A stretch of 64,000 bases of DNA from Kribbella flavida DSM 17836 (GCF_000024345.1 NC_013729.1:372001-436000); one strand, 5' to 3'; numbered from the stretch's first letter, positions 1,268 to 10,480 are shown. Program-made: numbers and translations. The notes: generated by a model not told the origin, from the sequence alone.

Positions 1268-4117
1268 ATGGGCAGCACTCTCGAGCGACCCGGTGAGCTG
1301 AGCCGGATCGCGGCGGCCCTCGACGCCGCCGGCCAGGGCAACGGCCGGGTCGTGGTGATCGAGGGCGAGGCGGGCATCGGCAAGACCCGGCTGGTCGGCG
1401 AGGCGCGGGCGCTGGCCAAGCAGCGCGGGTTCGTCCGGATGCAGGCGATCGGCGACGAGCTGGAGAGCGCGCTCGCCTGGGGTGTCGTCCGGCAGATGGT
1501 CGAGCGGTCGATCGCCCGGTACGCCGGTGAGGTCCGCGCCGCGATTCTCGCCGGGCCCGCCGGCCGCGCGTTGGACGCTCTCGACAAGGCAACTCCGAAC
1601 GCGGGTGACGCCGAGGTCGCGCGGACGATGCACGCGCTCTGGTGGGTCGCGGTCGATCTGGCCTCGCCCCGTCCGTTGCTGATCAGCGTGGACGACGCCC
1701 AGTGGTCCGACCTGCCGTCGCTGCGGTTTCTCTCGTACTTGTCGAAACGCGTCGCCGACCTGCCGATCGCCCTCGTGGTGGCGACCCGTCCGCCGTCCGA
1801 CCGTCTGGGTCCGCTGGCCGAACTGACCGTCTCGCGCCACGTCGAACGTCTGTTGCCGAGGCCGTTGTCCCGCGAGGCGATCGGCACCCTGACGGCGGAG
1901 CACCTCGCGAGCGCCCCCCACCCGGCAGTTGGGACGGGAGAGGCGCCGGCGGAGAAGGTCGTGGATGCGGTCCTGGAGGCCAGTGGCGGCAATCCGTTCC
2001 TGGCCGAGTCGTTGCTGGACGAGTTGTCTGTGCTCCACCGGTCGGTGACAGACCCGGCGACAGCAGACGCGGTCCGGGGCCTGGCGTCGAGCGCGGTCAG
2101 TCGCACCACGCTGGCCCGGCTGTCTCCGGATGCCCTGGCGCTCGCAAGTGCGGTGGCGATTCTCGGAGCCCGCGCCGACCTCTGGGCGGCCGGGTCGATC
2201 GCCGGTCTCGCCGATGCGCCGCTGTCCGCAGCCATCGACGGGCTGGTCGCCGCGAACGTCGTCACCACCAGTTCCGCGCAGGTCAGCTTCCTGCACCCGG
2301 TCATCCGCGAGTCGGTTCGCTCGATGCTCGGCCCGATCGAGAAGGCAGCGCTGCATGCCCGGGCCGCCGAGACCCTGTCGGCGGCCGGAGCCCCCGCGGC
2401 CCGGGTCGCCGCCCACCTGATCCACACCCCTGCGGACTCGTCTGCGCAGACCGTCGAGGTGCTGTGCGAGGCGGCGGCCTCGTCAGCGGCCGCCGGCGAC
2501 ACCGCGACGGCGATCAGCTACCTGACCCGCGCGCTGGAAGGTGCCCCAGGCAACAGTTCGCTGCAGGGGCAACTGGGTCTCACGCTGCTCCGAGGCGGCG
2601 ACGCCCCGCAGGCGCGGCACCACCTGCTGGCCGCGGCGGCCGCGAGCGCCGTACCGGAGCGCGCGGCGTTGCTCGCAGCGGCGGCAACCGCCACGTCCCT
2701 GATCGACGGCCCACTCGCGGCGGCGAACGAGCTCGTGCACACCTTGGCCGACTGGCCAGGACCGCCCTTCGCCCCGGACCGCCTGACCCTGGAGGCGCGA
2801 CTGGGCATCCTGCGGTCCTACCTGCCCACCGAACGCAAGAAGGCGTCCGAGCATCTGCGCCGGTTCGCCGACCTGCCCGGCGAGACGCCCGACGAGCGGA
2901 CACTGCTGGCTCTGCTCGCCCAGCGCGGCCGCTACGAGGTCAGCCCCGCGGCCGACGTGCGGCGTACGGCGGAACGCGCACTGCGGCACGGCGCCCTGTT
3001 CAAGGACTCGGCCGGTCACTCGGACACCTTGGTCGGGTGGTTGCTGGCGATGATGTCGCTGGTCGCCGCCGACGGGGTGACCCTGGCCCGCGAGGAGATC
3101 GCCGGAGCCCGCGACTGGGTCCGGCGGCACGGCTCGCCGATCGAGTTCGCGATGGTGGCGAACGTCGCCGACTTCGTTGCCTGGCGGTGCGGGGACCTGC
3201 CCGCCGTCGAGGCCGACGCGGACGGCGTGCTGGCGGCGGTGGAACCGGAGGACCTGACGCCCCAGGTCGTCGCGCTGCGGGCGACCGCGGTGCACTTCGG
3301 CGGGTACGCCGCGCTGGAGCGGGGCGACGTGGCAGCGGCGCAGGCGCTGCTTGCCGACTTCGAGACGCAGTGCCAGGACGCGCCGCGGGTGATCGCGATG
3401 ATGTGGCTGCACGAGCTGCGGGCCCGGATCGCGCTGGAGCAGGACCATCCGGCGGCCGCGCTCGAGCACGCGTACCGGCTGCGCGACGAGATGGCCGCGG
3501 CTGAGCTCGATCCACTGGCCGTGCCCTGGCGTACGCCGGCCGCGTGGGCCCTGCTGCGGCTGGGTTCGGAGGAAGAGGCACGGCAACTCGCCGCCGACCA
3601 GCTGGAGCTCGCTCGCCGGTGGGGCGCCGCATCGGATCTCGGTACCGCGCTCCGGCTGACCGCGAAGGTGGACGTCGGCCAGGGTGCCCGCCGGGTGGCG
3701 ACCCTGGCCGAAGCGGTCGCCGTACTGGAGAAGTCGCCGGCCCAGCTGGAGCTGGCGAAGGCTCTGGTGGAGCTGGGCGAGGCGCTGCGCGTGGTCGGAC
3801 GTCGTACGGAGGCACGGGAAGCGTTGGCCCGGGGCGGTGAACTGGCGGCGGTCTGCGGGTCTGCCGTGATCAGGCAGCGAGCGGCAGAAGCCCTGCAGGC
3901 GTTGGGAGATCGCCCGCGCACACTGATCTCCACCGGCCAGGACTCGCTGACCGCCAGCGAACGCCGGGTCGCCGGACTGGCAGTGAGCGGCCGGACGAAC
4001 CGGGACATCGCGCACGAGCTCTTCGTCTCGCCGAAGACGGTCGAAAACCACCTCGGCCGGATCTACGTGAAGCTCGGCATCACCGGCCGGCGCGAACTGG
4101 CCCGCGCGCTGACGTAG
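1268..4117 (+). CDS. Large ATP-binding LuxR-family regulator (LAL type)
   Basis: The 949-residue protein has the architecture of LAL/MalT-like regulators. An N-terminal AAA-like ATPase carries Walker A GEAGIGKT at about residues 33-40 and a Walker B-like LLISVDDAQW near 140. A long helical TPR-like middle region follows, and a C-terminal LuxR helix-turn-helix occupies the last 65 residues (TASERRVAGLAVSG, then VSPKTVENHLGRIYVKLGI). Such proteins activate transcription when ATP and an inducer bind. The ATG follows the stop of the MBL hydrolase with no gap, which suggests an operon. The target genes are unknown. A strong hairpin downstream separates it from the convergent C39-like gene. Confidence 0.9.
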   Translation: MGSTLERPGELSRIAAALDAAGQGNGRVVVIEGEAGIGKTRLVGEARALAKQRGFVRMQAIGDELESALAWGVVRQMVERSIARYAGEVRAAILAGPAGRALDALDKATPNAGDAEVARTMHALWWVAVDLASPRPLLISVDDAQWSDLPSLRFLSYLSKRVADLPIALVVATRPPSDRLGPLAELTVSRHVERLLPRPLSREAIGTLTAEHLASAPHPAVGTGEAPAEKVVDAVLEASGGNPFLAESLLDELSVLHRSVTDPATADAVRGLASSAVSRTTLARLSPDALALASAVAILGARADLWAAGSIAGLADAPLSAAIDGLVAANVVTTSSAQVSFLHPVIRESVRSMLGPIEKAALHARAAETLSAAGAPAARVAAHLIHTPADSSAQTVEVLCEAAASSAAAGDTATAISYLTRALEGAPGNSSLQGQLGLTLLRGGDAPQARHHLLAAAAASAVPERAALLAAAATATSLIDGPLAAANELVHTLADWPGPPFAPDRLTLEARLGILRSYLPTERKKASEHLRRFADLPGETPDERTLLALLAQRGRYEVSPAADVRRTAERALRHGALFKDSAGHSDTLVGWLLAMMSLVAADGVTLAREEIAGARDWVRRHGSPIEFAMVANVADFVAWRCGDLPAVEADADGVLAAVEPEDLTPQVVALRATAVHFGGYAALERGDVAAAQALLADFETQCQDAPRVIAMMWLHELRARIALEQDHPAAALEHAYRLRDEMAAAELDPLAVPWRTPAAWALLRLGSEEEARQLAADQLELARRWGAASDLGTALRLTAKVDVGQGARRVATLAEAVAVLEKSPAQLELAKALVELGEALRVVGRRTEAREALARGGELAAVCGSAVIRQRAAEALQALGDRPRTLISTGQDSLTASERRVAGLAVSGRTNRDIAHELFVSPKTVENHLGRIYVKLGITGRRELARALT

Positions 4118-4142
4118 CGGGTTGCCGGCAGCCGAACGTGGC

Positions 4143-4176
4143 TCCGAGCGGCCCCTCCCTCCAGGGGCCGCTCGGA
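4143..4176. terminator. Bidirectional Rho-independent-like terminator
   Basis: A perfect 14-bp inverted repeat (TCCGAGCGGCCCCT and its complement) with a 6-base loop lies between two convergent genes, 25 bases after one stop and 19 bases before the other. There is no U-tract, as is common in high-GC actinobacteria. Confidence 0.8.
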
Positions 4177-4194
4177 ACCGGGATCCGGCGAGGC

Positions 4195-5115
4195 TCAGCC
4201 GACCGGCGGCGCCGCCTCGAACCAGTTGATCGCCTCGACGTACCCCATCGTCGAGCCCTGGTACTGCTCTCCGAACAGCCGCCAGTAGGTGCGCTGCTTG
4301 ATCGTCGTCACGCCGTCGTCCGACACCGACTTCACGTTGATCGCGACCCGGTACAGGGTGACCTTCTCGCCCCGGACCTCCGACTGGGTGTCCTTGTAGC
4401 CGGGGGTCTTGTGGTCGTCGGCGCGGGCGGGGTCGTGCAGGGTCAGCTCGACCTTGCCGGAGCCGACGTCACCCTTGGCCGCCACCACGGTGACCGCGTG
4501 GCCGCCGGTCCGGCTGTGCGTGTTGTCGGCGTTCAGCACGTACCGGCCGTACCAGAGCTGAACCGGTGCCTGCCGCAACCGCTTGGCGATCTCCAGCCCG
4601 AACTCCGGGGTGTTGTCGGTCCCGATGCCGCCCCGATTGACCGTCCAGCCGGCCGCCTTGGCCCCGACCGTGGCGGCGTCGAACGCGGCCCGGTTCTCGC
4701 CCGTGCTGGACCCGCCACCGTTCGGCCCCATTCCGGCCTTGTAGCCGAGCCAGCCGATCCAGGCGGTCACCTCGTCGTAGTCCTCCGGCTTGCCCGGGTC
4801 GTACTCCGTCAGCAGCTGGCCGTTCGGCGTGATCCGCATCGGCAGGCCCTTGTGCTCGCCGAGGTAGTACATCGCGTTGTAGAGCGAGGTCGGCCCGCAG
4901 TGGCTGCTGCCTTCCGCGGCCAGGTGGGTGCGGAACTGGTCGGCATCCGTCACGTCGCACAGGTTGACCGCGTACTGCGGGCCGGCGACGTCCTTCTGCT
5001 CGGCGCAGAGCGGGGCGATCGGCAGCTCGGCCGGGGCGGCGTACGCGCCGGCGGCCGGGAAGAGCGCGGTGGCGGCGGTGAGGCCGGCGAGAACGGAAAG
5101 GCGGTGACGCTTCAT
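4195..5115 (-). CDS. Secreted C39-like (papain-fold) peptidase domain protein
   Basis: The 306-residue product starts MKRHRLSVLAG and has a classic Sec signal peptide ending near AGAYA-AP. The mature part has a papain-like core: SSHCGPTSLYNAMYYL (candidate catalytic Cys in the CGPTS context), RTGGHAVTVV (candidate catalytic His) and LHDPAR (Asp). This order matches the C39-like peptidase domain. The start at 5115 is chosen because GGGGGTAG lies just upstream; earlier in-frame starts would place extra residues before the signal peptide. It is probably an exported protease or an inactive relative acting on extracellular peptides. Proteolytic activity is inferred from motif order only. Confidence 0.75.
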   Translation of the reverse strand: MKRHRLSVLAGLTAATALFPAAGAYAAPAELPIAPLCAEQKDVAGPQYAVNLCDVTDADQFRTHLAAEGSSHCGPTSLYNAMYYLGEHKGLPMRITPNGQLLTEYDPGKPEDYDEVTAWIGWLGYKAGMGPNGGGSSTGENRAAFDAATVGAKAAGWTVNRGGIGTDNTPEFGLEIAKRLRQAPVQLWYGRYVLNADNTHSRTGGHAVTVVAAKGDVGSGKVELTLHDPARADDHKTPGYKDTQSEVRGEKVTLYRVAINVKSVSDDGVTTIKQRTYWRLFGEQYQGSTMGYVEAINWFEAAPPVG

Positions 5116-5423: not shown

Positions 5424-6251
5424 ATGCTGAACGACTTCACCCAACAGATCATCACCGAGTTCCGTGCCAACCAGGGCCGCGTCGGCGGCCCGTTCGACGG
5501 CGCGCGGCTGCTCCTGCTCACCACCACCGGCGCCCGCTCCGGTCGCCCGCACACGGCCGTGCTCGGCTACTACCCCGACACCGAGGACCGCCTGCTGGTC
5601 GTGGGTTCGGCCGGTGGTGGCCCGAAGCATCCCGACTGGTTCCACAACCTGCGCGCCGATCCGCGCGTCACCGTGGAGACCGGCGTCTTCACCTACGAGG
5701 CGGAAGCCACCGTCCTGCAGGGCGCCGAGCGCGACGAGACCTTCGCCCGCCTCGCCGAGGCGGACCCGGGCTGGGCCGAGTACCAGCGCCGGACCACCCG
5801 CACGATCCCGGTCGTCGCCCTCACCCAGGTCGCGGGCGGCCCGCCCAACGCCTCCTCCTTCGGCGAGGCCCTGATCCTCATCCACGCCGCCTTTCGCCGC
5901 GAACTCGCCTTGATTCGCAAGGAAGTCGCCACCTCCGCCGCGAGTGGTTCGGTGGGCCTGGGCGCCCAGCTCCGCATCAACTGCCTGACGCTCTGCCGAG
6001 GTCTGCACTTCCACCACACCGTCGAGAGCGACGGGCTGTTTCCGAGCCTGCTCGACCGCTATCCCGAGCTCACCGACACGATCTCGGCGCTGCAGGCCGA
6101 CCACGACAAGATCGCCCTGCTGCTCGAGGAGTTCCAGCTGTTGCTCAGCACCGGCAGCCCGGCGGCGATCCTGCCCGAGATCGACCGCCTGATCGAGGAA
6201 CTGACCGACCACCTCGACCGGGAGGAAGCCCAGCTGATCCCGCTGATGTGA
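5424..6251 (+). CDS. F420-dependent DDN-family domain fused to hemerythrin domain
   Basis: The 275-residue protein has two domains. Residues about 1-135 match the DDN/F420-dependent quinone or nitro reductase split-barrel family (LLLTTTGARSGRPHTAVLGYY, then GGPKHPDWFHNLRADPRV). Residues about 150-275 form a hemerythrin-like four-helix bundle with spaced metal ligands (IHAAFRREL, GLHFHHTVESDGLF, LQADHDKI, DHLDREEAQLIPLM). DDN proteins transfer hydride from F420H2, while hemerythrin domains bind a di-iron centre that senses O2 or NO. The fusion suggests a redox enzyme coupled to an oxygen/NO-binding module. It is monocistronic, with GAAAG before the ATG. Confidence 0.85.
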   Translation: MLNDFTQQIITEFRANQGRVGGPFDGARLLLLTTTGARSGRPHTAVLGYYPDTEDRLLVVGSAGGGPKHPDWFHNLRADPRVTVETGVFTYEAEATVLQGAERDETFARLAEADPGWAEYQRRTTRTIPVVALTQVAGGPPNASSFGEALILIHAAFRRELALIRKEVATSAASGSVGLGAQLRINCLTLCRGLHFHHTVESDGLFPSLLDRYPELTDTISALQADHDKIALLLEEFQLLLSTGSPAAILPEIDRLIEELTDHLDREEAQLIPLM

Positions 6252-6377
6252 CGCTTCGGCGCCGCGTACGCCGTACTGCGGACGCGGCGCCGGGAGTCCG
6301 TCGGCAGGCAACCTATGCACGAAAGGCATACCTGCAGGTCTTGGACGCCGCTCACCTCGGCGAGGTGTGCTTTTCCC

Positions 6378-6893
6378 ATGAACGTTTCCGTCTCCCGAGC
6401 CACCGTCCTCCGCGGCGCCGCCGTAGCCGCCGCAGCAGCAGCGATCCCCGGTACGGCGTACGCCGCCCGGCCCGAGCATCCCAACGTCAAGCTCATCCGC
6501 GGTTACTACGAGGCCTATGCCGCGGGCGATCTGGCCGCCCTGCGCAACCGCTACTTCGCCCCCGGCATCCGCTGGACGATCCCCGGCCACCACCCGCTCG
6601 CCGGCACGAAGGAGGGCGTCGAGGAGGTGCTCGCCTTTTTCGCCCAGCTGGCTCGCGCCGGTTTCCGCGCGGATCCGCTGTTCCTGGCGGCCGACGGTGA
6701 CTGGGTCGTGGACCTGCACCGCGGCTGGAGCACCACGCCCGAAGGCCTCGACCTCACCTGGGCGCTGGCCTTCCGCATCGCCGACCGCCGCATCGTCGAA
6801 GCCGTCAACTACCCGTCGGACCAGCACGCCGCCGACGCGTTCTTCTGGCGTACCTACCCGTTGGCGCCGATCCCCACCCGCTTGCAGCAGTAG
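6378..6893 (+). CDS. Secreted SnoaL/NTF2-like protein with Tat-like leader
   Basis: The 171-residue product begins MNVSVSRATVLRGAAVAAAAA, a twin-arginine-like leader (SRATVLRG is an imperfect Tat motif) with cleavage near AYA-ARPE. The mature domain is an NTF2-like alpha+beta cone (LIRGYYEAYAAGDLAALRNRYFAPGIRWTIPG), as in the SnoaL-like family, whose members include small isomerases, cyclases and non-catalytic binders. The internal ATG at 6378 is chosen because it begins the leader and has GAGG about 12 bases upstream. No operon partner is evident. The specific role is unknown. Confidence 0.7.
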   Translation: MNVSVSRATVLRGAAVAAAAAAIPGTAYAARPEHPNVKLIRGYYEAYAAGDLAALRNRYFAPGIRWTIPGHHPLAGTKEGVEEVLAFFAQLARAGFRADPLFLAADGDWVVDLHRGWSTTPEGLDLTWALAFRIADRRIVEAVNYPSDQHAADAFFWRTYPLAPIPTRLQQ

Positions 6894-6926
6894 CCGCATC
6901 GGTGCCTTGCTCCGGGCACAAAAAAG

Positions 6927-6952
6927 GGAAAGGAGCGCGACGCTCTCTTTCC
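6927..6952 (+). terminator. Imperfect hairpin after NTF2-like gene
   Basis: GGAAAGGAGCG, loop CGA, then CGCTCTCTTTCC pair into an 11-bp stem with one bulged base and one wobble. It lies 34 bases after the stop codon, in a locally AT-rich stretch just upstream of the RAE. Confidence 0.45.
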
Positions 6953-6975
6953 ACTCTCAACTTATAGCGCACCGG

Positions 6976-6994
6976 GGGGCTTGCCGCAAGACCC
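6976..6994. promoter_or_regulatory. Rifamycin-associated element (RAE)
   Basis: The 19-base sequence GGGGCTTGCCGCAAGACCC is an inverted repeat with 8 of 9 base pairs around a central C. From memory of the published RAE consensus (GGGGCTTGCGGCAAGGCCC) it matches at 17 of 19 positions. RAEs lie upstream of rifamycin-inducible resistance genes in actinomycetes. This one is 59 bases upstream of the glycosyltransferase-helR operon, both of whose products are types known to act against rifamycins. Confidence 0.85.
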
Positions 6995-7053
6995 AGGTGG
7001 TGCCGCAGAATCGTCCGCCTTGACGAAAAACGGACGGATGCGGGGAGTCGCAA

Positions 7054-8310
7054 GTGCGAGTGTTGTTGTCGACGTACGGGTCGCGCGGTGACGTCGAGCC
7101 GGTGGTTGCGCTGGGCGTGCAGCTGCAGGCTCTCGGCGTGGAGGCGGTGGTGTGCGCACCGCCGGACGAGGAGTTCGCGGAGCTGCTGGCGGGGGCCGGC
7201 GTACCGCTGGTGCCGGTCGGCCAGTCGGCGCGTGCCCTGACGAAGTCGGCGCCACCGCCGTCCTCCATCCCGGAGCGCGCGGCCGAGCTGATCGCGAGCC
7301 AGTTCGCCGTGCTGCCCGCCGCGGCGCAAGGGTGTGACGCGCTGGTGGCGACCGGCATGATCCCGACCGTGGCCGGCGCGCTGTCGATCGCCGAAAAGCT
7401 GGGCATCCGGTCGGTCTCGGTGACGTTCCAGCAGCTGACCCTGCCGTCGCCGCACCACCGGCCGCTGGCCTACGCGGGCCGGTCGTTCCCGCCGGACGTG
7501 ACCGACAACCAGGCGCTGTGGGACCTGGATGCCGAGAGCAACAACGTGCTGTTCGGCGAGGCGCTGAACGGCAACCGGGCGTCGATCGGCCTGCCCCCGG
7601 TGCCGAACGTGCGCGACTACGTCGTCGGCGACCGCCCGTGGCTGGCGTCCGACCCGGTGCTCGACCCGTGGCTGGAGCCGGCCGACCTCGACGTCGTACA
7701 GACCGGTGCGTGGATCCTGCCCGACGAGCGCCCGCTGCCGGACGACCTGGAGGACTTCCTGGGAGCCGGCGGCCCACCGGTGTTCGTCGGTTTCGGCAGC
7801 ATGCCGCTGCACGCGGCGACGGACGCGGCGCGGGTCGCGATCGAGGCGGTCCGGGCCCAGGGCCGTCGCGTGATCATCCGGCGTGGCTGGGCCGACCTGG
7901 GCCTGATCGACGACCAGGACGACTGCTTCGCCGTCGGCGAGATCAACCAGCAGCAGTTGTTCACCCGGGTGGCGGCCGTCGTGCACCACGGTGGTGCCGG
8001 CACCACGACCACGGCCACCCGCGCCGGTACGCCGCAGGTGGTGGTGCCCCAGGCGGCGGATCAGCCGTACTGGGCCGGCCGGGTGGCCGACCTCGGCATC
8101 GGTGTGGCCCACGACGGCCCGATCCCGACCGTCGAGTCGCTCTCGGTCGCGCTCGAGACGGCCCTGACTCCCGAGACCGGCGCACGAGCGACCACCGTGG
8201 CCGCCTCCGTCCGTACCGACGGGGCCGCCGTGGCCGCGCGCTACCTGGTCGAGCTGATCAACGGGACATCGGACGATCGCCGGGCTCTGGCCTCGGATTG
8301 GAGGTCCTGA
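7054..8310 (+). CDS. GT1-family glycosyltransferase, probable rifamycin glycosyltransferase (Rgt-like)
   Basis: The 418-residue GT-B enzyme of family GT1 resembles macrolide and antibiotic glycosyltransferases: N-terminal MRVLLSTYGSRGDVEPVVALG, an FVGFGSMPL block, and the C-terminal nucleotide-sugar signature VVHHGGAGTTTTATRAGTPQ followed by PQAADQPYWAGRV. GT1 enzymes move a sugar from a UDP- or TDP-sugar to a small molecule. The RAE upstream and helR one base downstream point to Rgt, which inactivates rifamycins by glycosylating the ansa chain. GGGGAG lies before the GTG start. The family is certain from sequence; the rifamycin substrate is an inference from context. Other hydrophobic acceptors remain possible. 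Confidence 0.85.
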   Translation: MRVLLSTYGSRGDVEPVVALGVQLQALGVEAVVCAPPDEEFAELLAGAGVPLVPVGQSARALTKSAPPPSSIPERAAELIASQFAVLPAAAQGCDALVATGMIPTVAGALSIAEKLGIRSVSVTFQQLTLPSPHHRPLAYAGRSFPPDVTDNQALWDLDAESNNVLFGEALNGNRASIGLPPVPNVRDYVVGDRPWLASDPVLDPWLEPADLDVVQTGAWILPDERPLPDDLEDFLGAGGPPVFVGFGSMPLHAATDAARVAIEAVRAQGRRVIIRRGWADLGLIDDQDDCFAVGEINQQQLFTRVAAVVHHGGAGTTTTATRAGTPQVVVPQAADQPYWAGRVADLGIGVAHDGPIPTVESLSVALETALTPETGARATTVAASVRTDGAAVAARYLVELINGTSDDRRALASDWRS

Positions 8311-8311
8311 C

Positions 8312-10480
8312 GTGGCTTCCGTCTCCAGCAGCGCGTTCGCCCTTCCCGGCAACCTGGCCGCCAAGGCCGACCCGAGGCTGATCGCCGCCGACGAGCAGCA
8401 CTTCGCGGCCATCGCGACCAGCCTCGAGCAGTCGATCGCCGACCTGTCCGACCGCCTCGACGCCGCCCGCAAGACGCCCGGCGGCGCCGGCCAGGAGGCG
8501 CTCGACCGGGACCTGGAAATCCATCGCCTGACCGCCCGCCTGCGGACCCTTCGGCGTTTCGGTCTCGACCTGTGTCTCGGGCACATGGTCGGCGCGGACG
8601 ACCCCGACCCCGTGTACGTCGGCCGCCTCGGCCTGACCGACAGCGACGGCCGCCGGCTGCTGATCGACTGGCGCTCCCCAGCGGCCGAGCCGTTCTTCGG
8701 AGCGACGCACGCCAACCCGATGGGGCTGGCCAGCCGTCGCCGGTACCGCTGGACCCGCGGCCGGATCAGCGACTACTGGGACGAGGTGTTCAGCTCGGAT
8801 GGGTTCGAAGGGCACGCCGCCGCGCTCGACGACCAGTCCGCGTTCATCGCCAGCCTGGGCAGCAACCGGTCGGACCGGATGCGCGACGTCCTGGGCACCA
8901 TCCAGGCCGACCAGGACGCGATCATCCGGGCGGGATCCCGCGGCGCCCTCGTCGTCGACGGCGGTCCCGGCACGGGCAAGACCGTCGTCGCCCTGCACCG
9001 CACCGCGTACCTGCTGTACTCCGACCCGCGCCTCGGGCACAGCCGGGGCGGCGTGCTGTTCGTCGGGCCGCACCAGCCGTACCTGGCCTACGTCTCCGAC
9101 GTACTGCCCAGCCTCGGCGAGGAAGGCGTACAGATCTGCACCCTGCGCGACCTGCTGCCCGAGGGAGCCTCCGCGCCGGCCGAGGCGGACCCGGAGGTCG
9201 CCCGGCTGAAGTCGTCCGCGGACATGGTGGCGGCGATCGAACCGGCGGTCCGGCTGTACGAGGAACCGCCGACGAAGCCGATGACGGTCGAGACCCACTG
9301 GTCCGACATCTGGCTCACCGCCGCCGACTGGGCCGAGGCGTTCGGATCGGCCGACCCCAGTACGCCGCACAACGAGGCGCGCGACCAGGTCCTGGAGGAA
9401 CTGCTCACGATCCTGATGGACAAGCACGCCGACGAGTACGAGGACGACGACGTCTCGCCCGAGATGCTGCGCAGGTCCCTGCTGGGCAACGAGGACCTGA
9501 TGGACGCCTTCGGCAAGGCCTGGCCGCTGATCGACCCGACCGACCTGGTCGGAGATCTGTGGTCCGTGCCTGCCTACCTGCGAATGTGCGCCCCCTGGCT
9601 CACCCCCGACGAGGTGCGCACGCTGCAGCGGAGCGATCCCCAGGCGTGGACCGTCGCCGACCTCCCGCTCCTGGACGCGGCCCGGCAGCGCCTCGGTGAC
9701 CCGGAGGCGTCCCGTCGCAAGCGTCGCCAAGCGGCCGCCGCCGCGGTCGAACGCGAGCGGATGGCCGACGTCATCGACCACATCATCGAGGCCGACGACG
9801 ACAACGAAGGCTGGGTGCCGATGCTGCGCGGCAAGGACATCCAGGAGTCGTTGATCGACGTTGCCGCCCTTCCGGCCGCCGACCCGGACCTGCTGGCCGG
9901 GCCGTTCGCGCACATCGTGGTCGACGAGGCTCAGGAACTGACCGACGCCGAGTGGCAGATGCTGCTGCTTCGCTGCCCCTCCCGGAGCTTCACCATCGTC
10001 GGCGACCGAGCCCAGGCCCGCCACGGCTTCACCGAGTCCTGGCAGGAACGCCTCGAACGAGTAGGCCTGGACCGCGTGAATTTGGCCTCGCTCAGCATCA
10101 ACTACCGCACCCCGGCGGAGGTCATGACCGAGGCCGAGCCTGTCATCCGCGCCGTCCTCCCGGACGCCAACGTCCCCACTTCCATCCGCACCAGCGGGAT
10201 CCCGGTCAGCCACGGTGCTGTCGCCGACCTGGATGCCATCCTCGCCGGCTGGCAGGCCGAGCACCCGGAGGGCGTCGCCTGCATCATCGCCACCGAACCG
10301 ATCGGCCACCCGTCCGGTCCGCGCGTTCGCACGCTCACCCCTGAACTGTCCAAGGGACTCGAGTTCGACCTCGTCGTGCTCGTCGACCCGGAATCGTTCG
10401 GCGATGGCATCGAGGGTGCGGTGGATCGCTACGTGGCGATGACCCGGGCCACTCAGCGGTTGGTCATCCTCAACTCCTGA
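8312..10480 (+). CDS. helR: RNA polymerase recycling motor ATPase HelR (HelD-like)
   Basis: The 722-residue superfamily 1 ATPase has an N-terminal coiled-coil arm (residues about 20-90), a short beta domain ending DWRSPAAEPFF, Walker A GGPGTGKT near residue 218, a helicase II-type block HIVVDEAQELTDAEWQMLL, GDRAQA, LSINYRTPAEV, and a C-terminal KGLEFDLVVLVDP and YVAMTRATQRL. This is the HelD/HelR layout: the protein inserts into RNA polymerase, removes stalled complexes and displaces rifamycin. The start GTG is one base after the glycosyltransferase stop and is served by GGAGG inside the upstream gene, so the two genes form one operon under the RAE. Confidence 0.92.
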   Translation: MASVSSSAFALPGNLAAKADPRLIAADEQHFAAIATSLEQSIADLSDRLDAARKTPGGAGQEALDRDLEIHRLTARLRTLRRFGLDLCLGHMVGADDPDPVYVGRLGLTDSDGRRLLIDWRSPAAEPFFGATHANPMGLASRRRYRWTRGRISDYWDEVFSSDGFEGHAAALDDQSAFIASLGSNRSDRMRDVLGTIQADQDAIIRAGSRGALVVDGGPGTGKTVVALHRTAYLLYSDPRLGHSRGGVLFVGPHQPYLAYVSDVLPSLGEEGVQICTLRDLLPEGASAPAEADPEVARLKSSADMVAAIEPAVRLYEEPPTKPMTVETHWSDIWLTAADWAEAFGSADPSTPHNEARDQVLEELLTILMDKHADEYEDDDVSPEMLRRSLLGNEDLMDAFGKAWPLIDPTDLVGDLWSVPAYLRMCAPWLTPDEVRTLQRSDPQAWTVADLPLLDAARQRLGDPEASRRKRRQAAAAAVERERMADVIDHIIEADDDNEGWVPMLRGKDIQESLIDVAALPAADPDLLAGPFAHIVVDEAQELTDAEWQMLLLRCPSRSFTIVGDRAQARHGFTESWQERLERVGLDRVNLASLSINYRTPAEVMTEAEPVIRAVLPDANVPTSIRTSGIPVSHGAVADLDAILAGWQAEHPEGVACIIATEPIGHPSGPRVRTLTPELSKGLEFDLVVLVDPESFGDGIEGAVDRYVAMTRATQRLVILNS

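Follow-up and report, generated by a model that had tools for sequence, protein, structure and literature searches.

The window analysed here, 64,000 nucleotides long, is the stretch 372001-436000 of the genome of Kribbella flavida DSM 17836 (7.58 Mb, a single contig); positions below are counted from its first base unless given for the genome. It holds a rifamycin-associated element (RAE), followed by a gene for a glycosyltransferase (GT) of the GT1 type and by helR. Inducible rifamycin resistance across Actinobacteria, mycobacteria included, is under RAE control; the mechanism of the element has been called unknown, with an unidentified factor assumed (PMC10719064 and, from 2026, PMC12802891). 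We found that the RAE of this locus and of its relatives is flanked on both sides by a conserved -10 box at a fixed distance, as if two divergent promoters shared their -35 DNA. The new point is this reading of the RAE as two back-to-back promoters; the operon itself, in which drug inactivation and target protection are combined, is common in Actinobacteria, where the two genes are sometimes fused. The features are as follows.

6920-6925, minus strand: tract of six T directly behind the hairpin, predicted intrinsic terminator
6926-6952, minus strand: hairpin at the extreme 5' end of the predicted antisense RNA (free energy -14.8 kcal/mol, z -3.3)
6951-6952, minus strand: predicted antisense start GG (the plus-strand CC is present in 93-100% of loci)
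6959-6964, minus strand: putative antisense -10 hexamer TAAGTT, 19-bp spacer (overlapping alternative TATAAG with 17 bp)
6976-6994, no strand: RAE GGGGCTTGCCGCAAGACCC, proposed to supply two divergent promoters with their common -35 DNA
6981-6986, plus strand: putative sense -35 hexamer TTGCCG, within the RAE
6984-6989, minus strand: putative antisense -35 hexamer TTGCGG, overlapping the sense -35
7006-7011, plus strand: putative sense -10 hexamer CAGAAT, 19-bp spacer, C at the first base
7054-8310, plus strand: open reading frame (ORF) of the Rgt-like GT1 glycosyltransferase, GTG start, 418 amino acids
8312-10480, plus strand: ORF of helR, GTG start, 722 amino acids, 1290 bits with profile NF041254

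The two ORFs are separated by one base (TGA-C-GTG; junction GGAGGTCCTGACGTG), and a GGAGG Shine-Dalgarno-like sequence for helR lies within the 3' end of the GT ORF. The one-base distance, already seen in the initial annotation, implies co-transcription of GT and helR, as had been proposed there, and a functional coupling is supported by homologous loci in which both proteins are encoded by one fused ORF (L026 and L030, see below). The naming of the second gene as helR was also correct, since its product exceeds the cut-off of the HelR profile (750 bits), covering profile positions 1-705 of 706, and it matches the structure of Mycobacterium smegmatis HelD (6yxu) with an E value of 6e-106. It resembles the Streptomyces venezuelae type of HelR in scoring above the cut-off, in its full length and in its link to an RAE, but the Kribbella helR stands second in the operon, behind the GT gene, and not directly behind the RAE.

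The first gene codes for a GT-B/GT1 protein (Pfam domains EryCIII-like_C and Glyco_transf_28), whose nearest solved structures are the glycopeptide glycosyltransferases GtfB, GtfA and GtfD. Rgt is its best family: the profile NF000354, matched over almost its full length, gives 508 bits against 60 bits for the next family, although the score misses the Rgt equivalog cut-off of 800 bits. This cut-off is very tight, since it is reached in none of 247 Streptomyces genomes (top score, 708 bits). In the phylogenetic tree, the GT groups with other Kribbella GTs; it falls into the RAE-linked Rgt family, though not into the clade nearest to the Rgt model, so that the Rgt-type enzyme proposed in the initial annotation, and the phylogeny suggested there as a check on it, hold for the family but not for the equivalog or for the nearest clade. 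The latter comprises 12 proteins and is nested among RAE-linked and helR-linked GTs; their genes have an RAE 77-79 bp ahead of the start codon, and no helR was found in the 1.5 kb examined downstream of them. The window GT shares with Rgt1438, a rifamycin-inactivating glycosyltransferase, the family and the RAE placement of the nearest relatives of Rgt1438, but it is only 59-65% identical to the proteins nearest to the Rgt model, belongs to another clade and adjoins helR, and its activity is a prediction. Since Rgt is the best family and the RAE and the tree placement agree with it, while the cut-off is not reached, we regard the protein as an Rgt-family enzyme in the broad sense (best family, RAE-linked tree and arrangement) and infer a rifamycin substrate. 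The locus is very probably a rifamycin-defence operon.

The 19-bp inverted repeat, described in the initial annotation as RAE-like, is a true RAE. It differs at two positions from GGGGCTTGCGGCAAGGCCC, which we take to be the consensus, and is the only site in the window with three or fewer mismatches; dinucleotide shuffles of the window give a mean of 0.05 such sites. It lies 78 bp ahead of the GT start, and nearly all homologues have an RAE at 74-105 bp, mostly at 76-80 bp. The only other convincing RAE in the genome (genome positions 1618110-1618128) is ahead of rox, whose product exceeds the cut-off for rifampin monooxygenase (907 versus 800 bits), and it is accompanied by the same predicted antisense promoter, hairpin and T-tract. 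Element, gene families and RAE-gene distance are those of the RAE-controlled rgt, rph, rox, arr and helR genes of Actinobacteria. An alignment of 75 homologous GT loci shows conservation well beyond the RAE; read on the minus strand, the RAE is followed by GTGCGCTATANGTTGAGAGTGG, then by a hairpin of the form GGCAAGGAG-N-CTCCTTGCC and then by a T-tract. The initial annotation had spotted the palindrome and had left unmentioned the conserved flanking elements and the minus-strand hairpin and T-tract (6920-6952). In the literature, the RAE is a 19-bp palindrome of unexplained mechanism that overlaps the sense -35: M. smegmatis helD has a mapped sense promoter whose -35 overlaps the RAE, and induction of M. 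abscessus helR is lost after removal of half of the RAE (PMC10719064). Here, in contrast, the element appears to carry two promoters that overlap and point away from each other, and in many copies a terminator follows on the antisense side.

To avoid a bias from homologous genes, RAEs were also picked by the pattern GGGNCTTGCNGCAAGNCCC alone in 297 genomes of the class; it occurs in 114 of them (47 genera), and the reversed pattern in 3. In nearly all of the 74 class-wide RAE loci that were kept, the downstream gene is helR, rox, rph, arr or a GT gene. With the RAE numbered 1-19, TTGCNG occupies positions 6-11, and the key bases of a -10 hexamer are A2 and T6. A sense NANNNT at exactly 19 bp is present in 76/76 GT-linked and 72/74 class-wide RAEs, its first base being C in 74/76 and 70/74, respectively. 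The antisense TANNNT, again at exactly 19 bp, is found in 97% of both sets and with every class of gene (helR, 30/30; rox, 18/18; rph, 7/7; arr, 7/7; GT, 74/76 and 4/5). At nearly all other spacings only 0-3% match the -10 pattern, and both boxes stand at 19 bp in 96% of the class-wide RAEs, whereas random frames drawn from these loci show both at a frequency of 1.25e-4. In the box upstream of the RAE, the three most invariant bases are T1, A2 and T6 of the antisense hexamer (99% class-wide). Outside the palindrome, the class-wide flanks show strong complementarity only at positions 27, 32 and 36, of which 32 and 36 are A2 and T6. Position 31 is complementary in just 0-3%, because the sense hexamer starts with C (~95%) and the antisense hexamer with T (97-99%), a difference that suggests a deliberate handicap of the sense promoter. 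Within the palindrome, positions 4/16 are systematically non-palindromic (complementary in 12-14% of loci), and none of the models considered below explains this asymmetry.

These boxes helped to set the orientation of the class-wide loci, but a test that asks for a box on each side gives the same result whichever way a locus is read. Sequences related by descent do not count as independent events; the genomes with an RAE span the 47 genera, and the far flanks agree only at background level (28-29%). A sigma-70 promoter scan of the locus gave no promoter, because it accepts spacers of 16-18 bp only, and the offset statistics were used in its place. A TATAGC box was tried as the sense -10 and rejected, as it has no T at position 6 and no conserved -35. 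Given the fixed spacing and the invariant bases, the antisense promoter at the RAE is probably real. We found no description of such a promoter in a keyword search of the literature, whose scope did not include the original RAE and HelR papers, so that a partial earlier description is possible. When divergent gene pairs served by the same RAE were sought, one candidate emerged, L048, where (2390-4942) a GT gene and a HelD-type gene point away from a single RAE between them and no terminator was found in the antisense leader. It is possibly a true case of two-way use of one RAE; the HelD-type gene may also have its own promoter.

The predicted antisense start (GG on the minus strand) is the first base of a G+C hairpin that is followed, on the antisense strand, by the T-tract CTTTTTTG, i.e., the layout of an intrinsic terminator. 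Because hairpin and T-tract follow the start at once here, as they do in the majority of rgt-type copies, the predicted antisense RNA of the window (GGAAAGAGAGCGUCGCGCUCCUUUCCCUUUUUUG) would be limited to about 33 nt. Hairpin arms from the same locus pair at 7.83 of 9 positions, compared with at most 7.26 of 9 for arms swapped between loci, and a compensatory C-G/A-T change is seen in the arms (30 versus 14 loci). At least four T within the 8 nt behind the hairpin are found in 58% of the GT-linked loci on the minus strand versus 4% on the plus strand. An Rfam search of the region gave no match. The terminator stands out best in GT, rox and some rph copies, and arr copies lack it; the antisense -10 is therefore the feature of general occurrence, to which a terminator is frequently added.

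The best overall explanation, to which we assign a probability of about one half, is a defence operon under a pair of divergent promoters that are both based on the RAE. The GT would probably glycosylate rifamycins and HelR would strip the drug from RNA polymerase, both being made from a single transcript. The palindrome would carry TTGCNG on each strand, as two -35 hexamers that overlap. The operon-facing promoter would be handicapped by its CAGAAT -10, with the non-consensus C as first base, and by its 19-bp spacer; the opposite promoter would have a consensus-like -10 (TANNNT, 19 bp), a GG start and, here, an immediate hairpin and T-tract. Since the predicted polymerase footprints (-55 to +20) overlap by a calculated ~44 bp, the two promoters are expected to exclude each other. 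Without drug, polymerase would be found mainly on the antisense promoter and the operon would be kept low; at low rifamycin, the antisense complexes would be shortened or disabled, and drug-free polymerase could then fire the sense promoter. That this competition between promoters is the rifamycin sensor is a tentative proposal, and the complete version of it, in which mutually exclusive divergent promoters have the RAE as their common -35 core and the drug, sensed by RNA polymerase itself, shifts the polymerase from a futile antisense promoter to the operon, is rather doubtful. The two promoters, if true, would account for the RAE being palindromic, and polymerase as the sensor, if true, would be a second solution, geometrically unlike that of Bacillus subtilis helD. 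An antisense promoter that shares the RAE would make the question of sensing answerable by point mutations and in vitro transcription.

In B. subtilis, rifampicin induces helD by way of a weaker sense promoter and a dominant antisense promoter, the weak one being freed once rifampicin arrests polymerase at the dominant one, and the spacer is 19 bp in the antisense promoters of both helD and pps (PMC12802891). At the level of sequence, the Kribbella locus also has predicted opposing sense and antisense promoters ahead of the gene, and resembles helD/pps in pairing a weak sense promoter with an antisense promoter that looks stronger, in the 19-bp spacer and in the HelD gene. However, the B. subtilis promoters are convergent and do not overlap, whereas those of Kribbella would be divergent, share their -35 DNA and be mutually exclusive, and the antisense transcript would meet a hairpin immediately, unlike in B. 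subtilis. Direct transfer of the B. subtilis mechanism was rejected, as overlapping promoters lost induction there (PMC12802891). Since that mechanism requires convergent, non-overlapping promoters, an extra step would be needed here: either drug-bound polymerase quits the antisense promoter quickly, or a protein bound to the RAE reads the drug.

Several points weigh against the divergent promoter pair. In B. subtilis, moving the promoters close enough for polymerases to collide abolished induction (PMC12802891), and a polymerase that the drug arrests on the antisense promoter should obstruct the sense promoter as well, unless it left quickly. In M. smegmatis, helD is also served by another sense promoter, whose start lies ~20 bp upstream of the RAE (PMC10719064). 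Neither hairpin nor T-tract is universal: the former is missing from the arr copies, and the latter occurs in just 22% of the class-wide loci. Finally, the outer RAE positions (1-3 and 17-19, GGG/CCC) are 98-100% conserved in GT-linked copies, more than -35 contacts would seem to need, which suits a dimeric DNA-binding protein. The RAE could be the operator of such a protein, responsive to rifamycin or to RNA polymerase stress and located symmetrically at about -33 of both promoters, both of which it would control; the antisense RNA would then be a by-product shortened by the terminator. We consider this a serious possibility, though short of an even chance, and judge it close to the competition between promoters. 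Besides the nearly invariant GGG/CCC, it is favoured by the fact that palindromes are typical dimer sites, by the unidentified factor assumed in the literature (PMC10719064, PMC12802891) and by the loss of induction upon steric promoter overlap in B. subtilis (PMC12802891). However, no such factor is named in the RAE literature covered, positions 4/16 are systematically non-complementary, and an operator alone leaves unexplained both -10 boxes at exactly 19 bp as well as the C of the sense and the T of the antisense hexamer.

A reading that we consider unlikely assigns the conserved box upstream of the RAE to a second sense promoter or to some other protein-binding site, and takes the hairpin for a terminator of the upstream gene or a product of chance. 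The second promoter of M. smegmatis helD (PMC10719064) is a precedent, and the plus strand of the box fits NANNNT (CAACNT, positions -17 to -12), but its most invariant bases are the antisense T1, A2 and T6, exactly 19 bp from the antisense TTGCNG, and no conserved -35 was found 15-20 bp upstream of the box. The hairpin was rejected as the terminator of the upstream SnoaL-like gene, since the T-tracts come after it in the minus-strand direction and it stays equally far from the RAE whatever gene lies upstream. Less likely still is a GT that acts on a non-rifamycin substrate and is merely co-regulated with helR: its score below the equivalog cut-off, its separation from the clade nearest to the Rgt model and the glycopeptide glycosyltransferases as its nearest structures would be consistent with this, but the lead of Rgt over all other families exceeds 440 bits, the Rgt-nearest clade carries the same RAE at 77-79 bp, the GT adjoins HelR and is fused with it elsewhere, and the other RAE gene of the genome codes for Rox, a rifamycin enzyme above its cut-off.

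The initial annotation had presented the GT-helR unit as a compact system, possibly undescribed in the genus; the data do not support an unusual arrangement. Among 80 GT homologues from across Actinobacteria (65-80% identical to the window GT), 44 have helR (>60% identical) directly 3' of the GT gene, and the arrangement was found in Streptomyces, Kribbella, Nonomuraea, Actinomadura, Microtetraspora, Rhodococcus and others. The distance between the genes ranges from an overlap up to a gap of 463 bp across the homologues and is 1-2 bp in Kribbella, where HelR above the cut-off occurs in 19 of 38 genomes, with the GT in front in 9 of these 19. GT and HelR form one continuous ORF, with both domains complete, in Acrocarpospora (L030, 5001-8402, 1134 amino acids) and in Streptomyces (L026, 1848-5432, 1195 amino acids). 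These are either natural fusions or cases of lost stop codons, and they support a functional coupling of GT and HelR. Considering the 44 homologues, the two fusions and the nine Kribbella genomes, the operon is a member of a common kind.

Upstream of the RAE lie a gene for an F420H2-dependent quinone reductase domain fused to a hemerythrin domain (5424-6251) and the SnoaL-like protein gene (6315-6893), for neither of which we saw an operon link. Besides HelR, the genome encodes five other HelD-like proteins, none of them above the HelR cut-off. In six homologous loci (L045, L050, L068, L075, L079, L081), the GT is followed by another class of HelD (35-37% identical to the window HelR), which in several of them directly adjoins the GT, and the pairing of GT with HelD may have arisen more than once. 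A few GT homologues have no RAE (L031, L040, L043, L073 and also L069), four of them forming a tight clade; therefore, a GT can lose RAE control.

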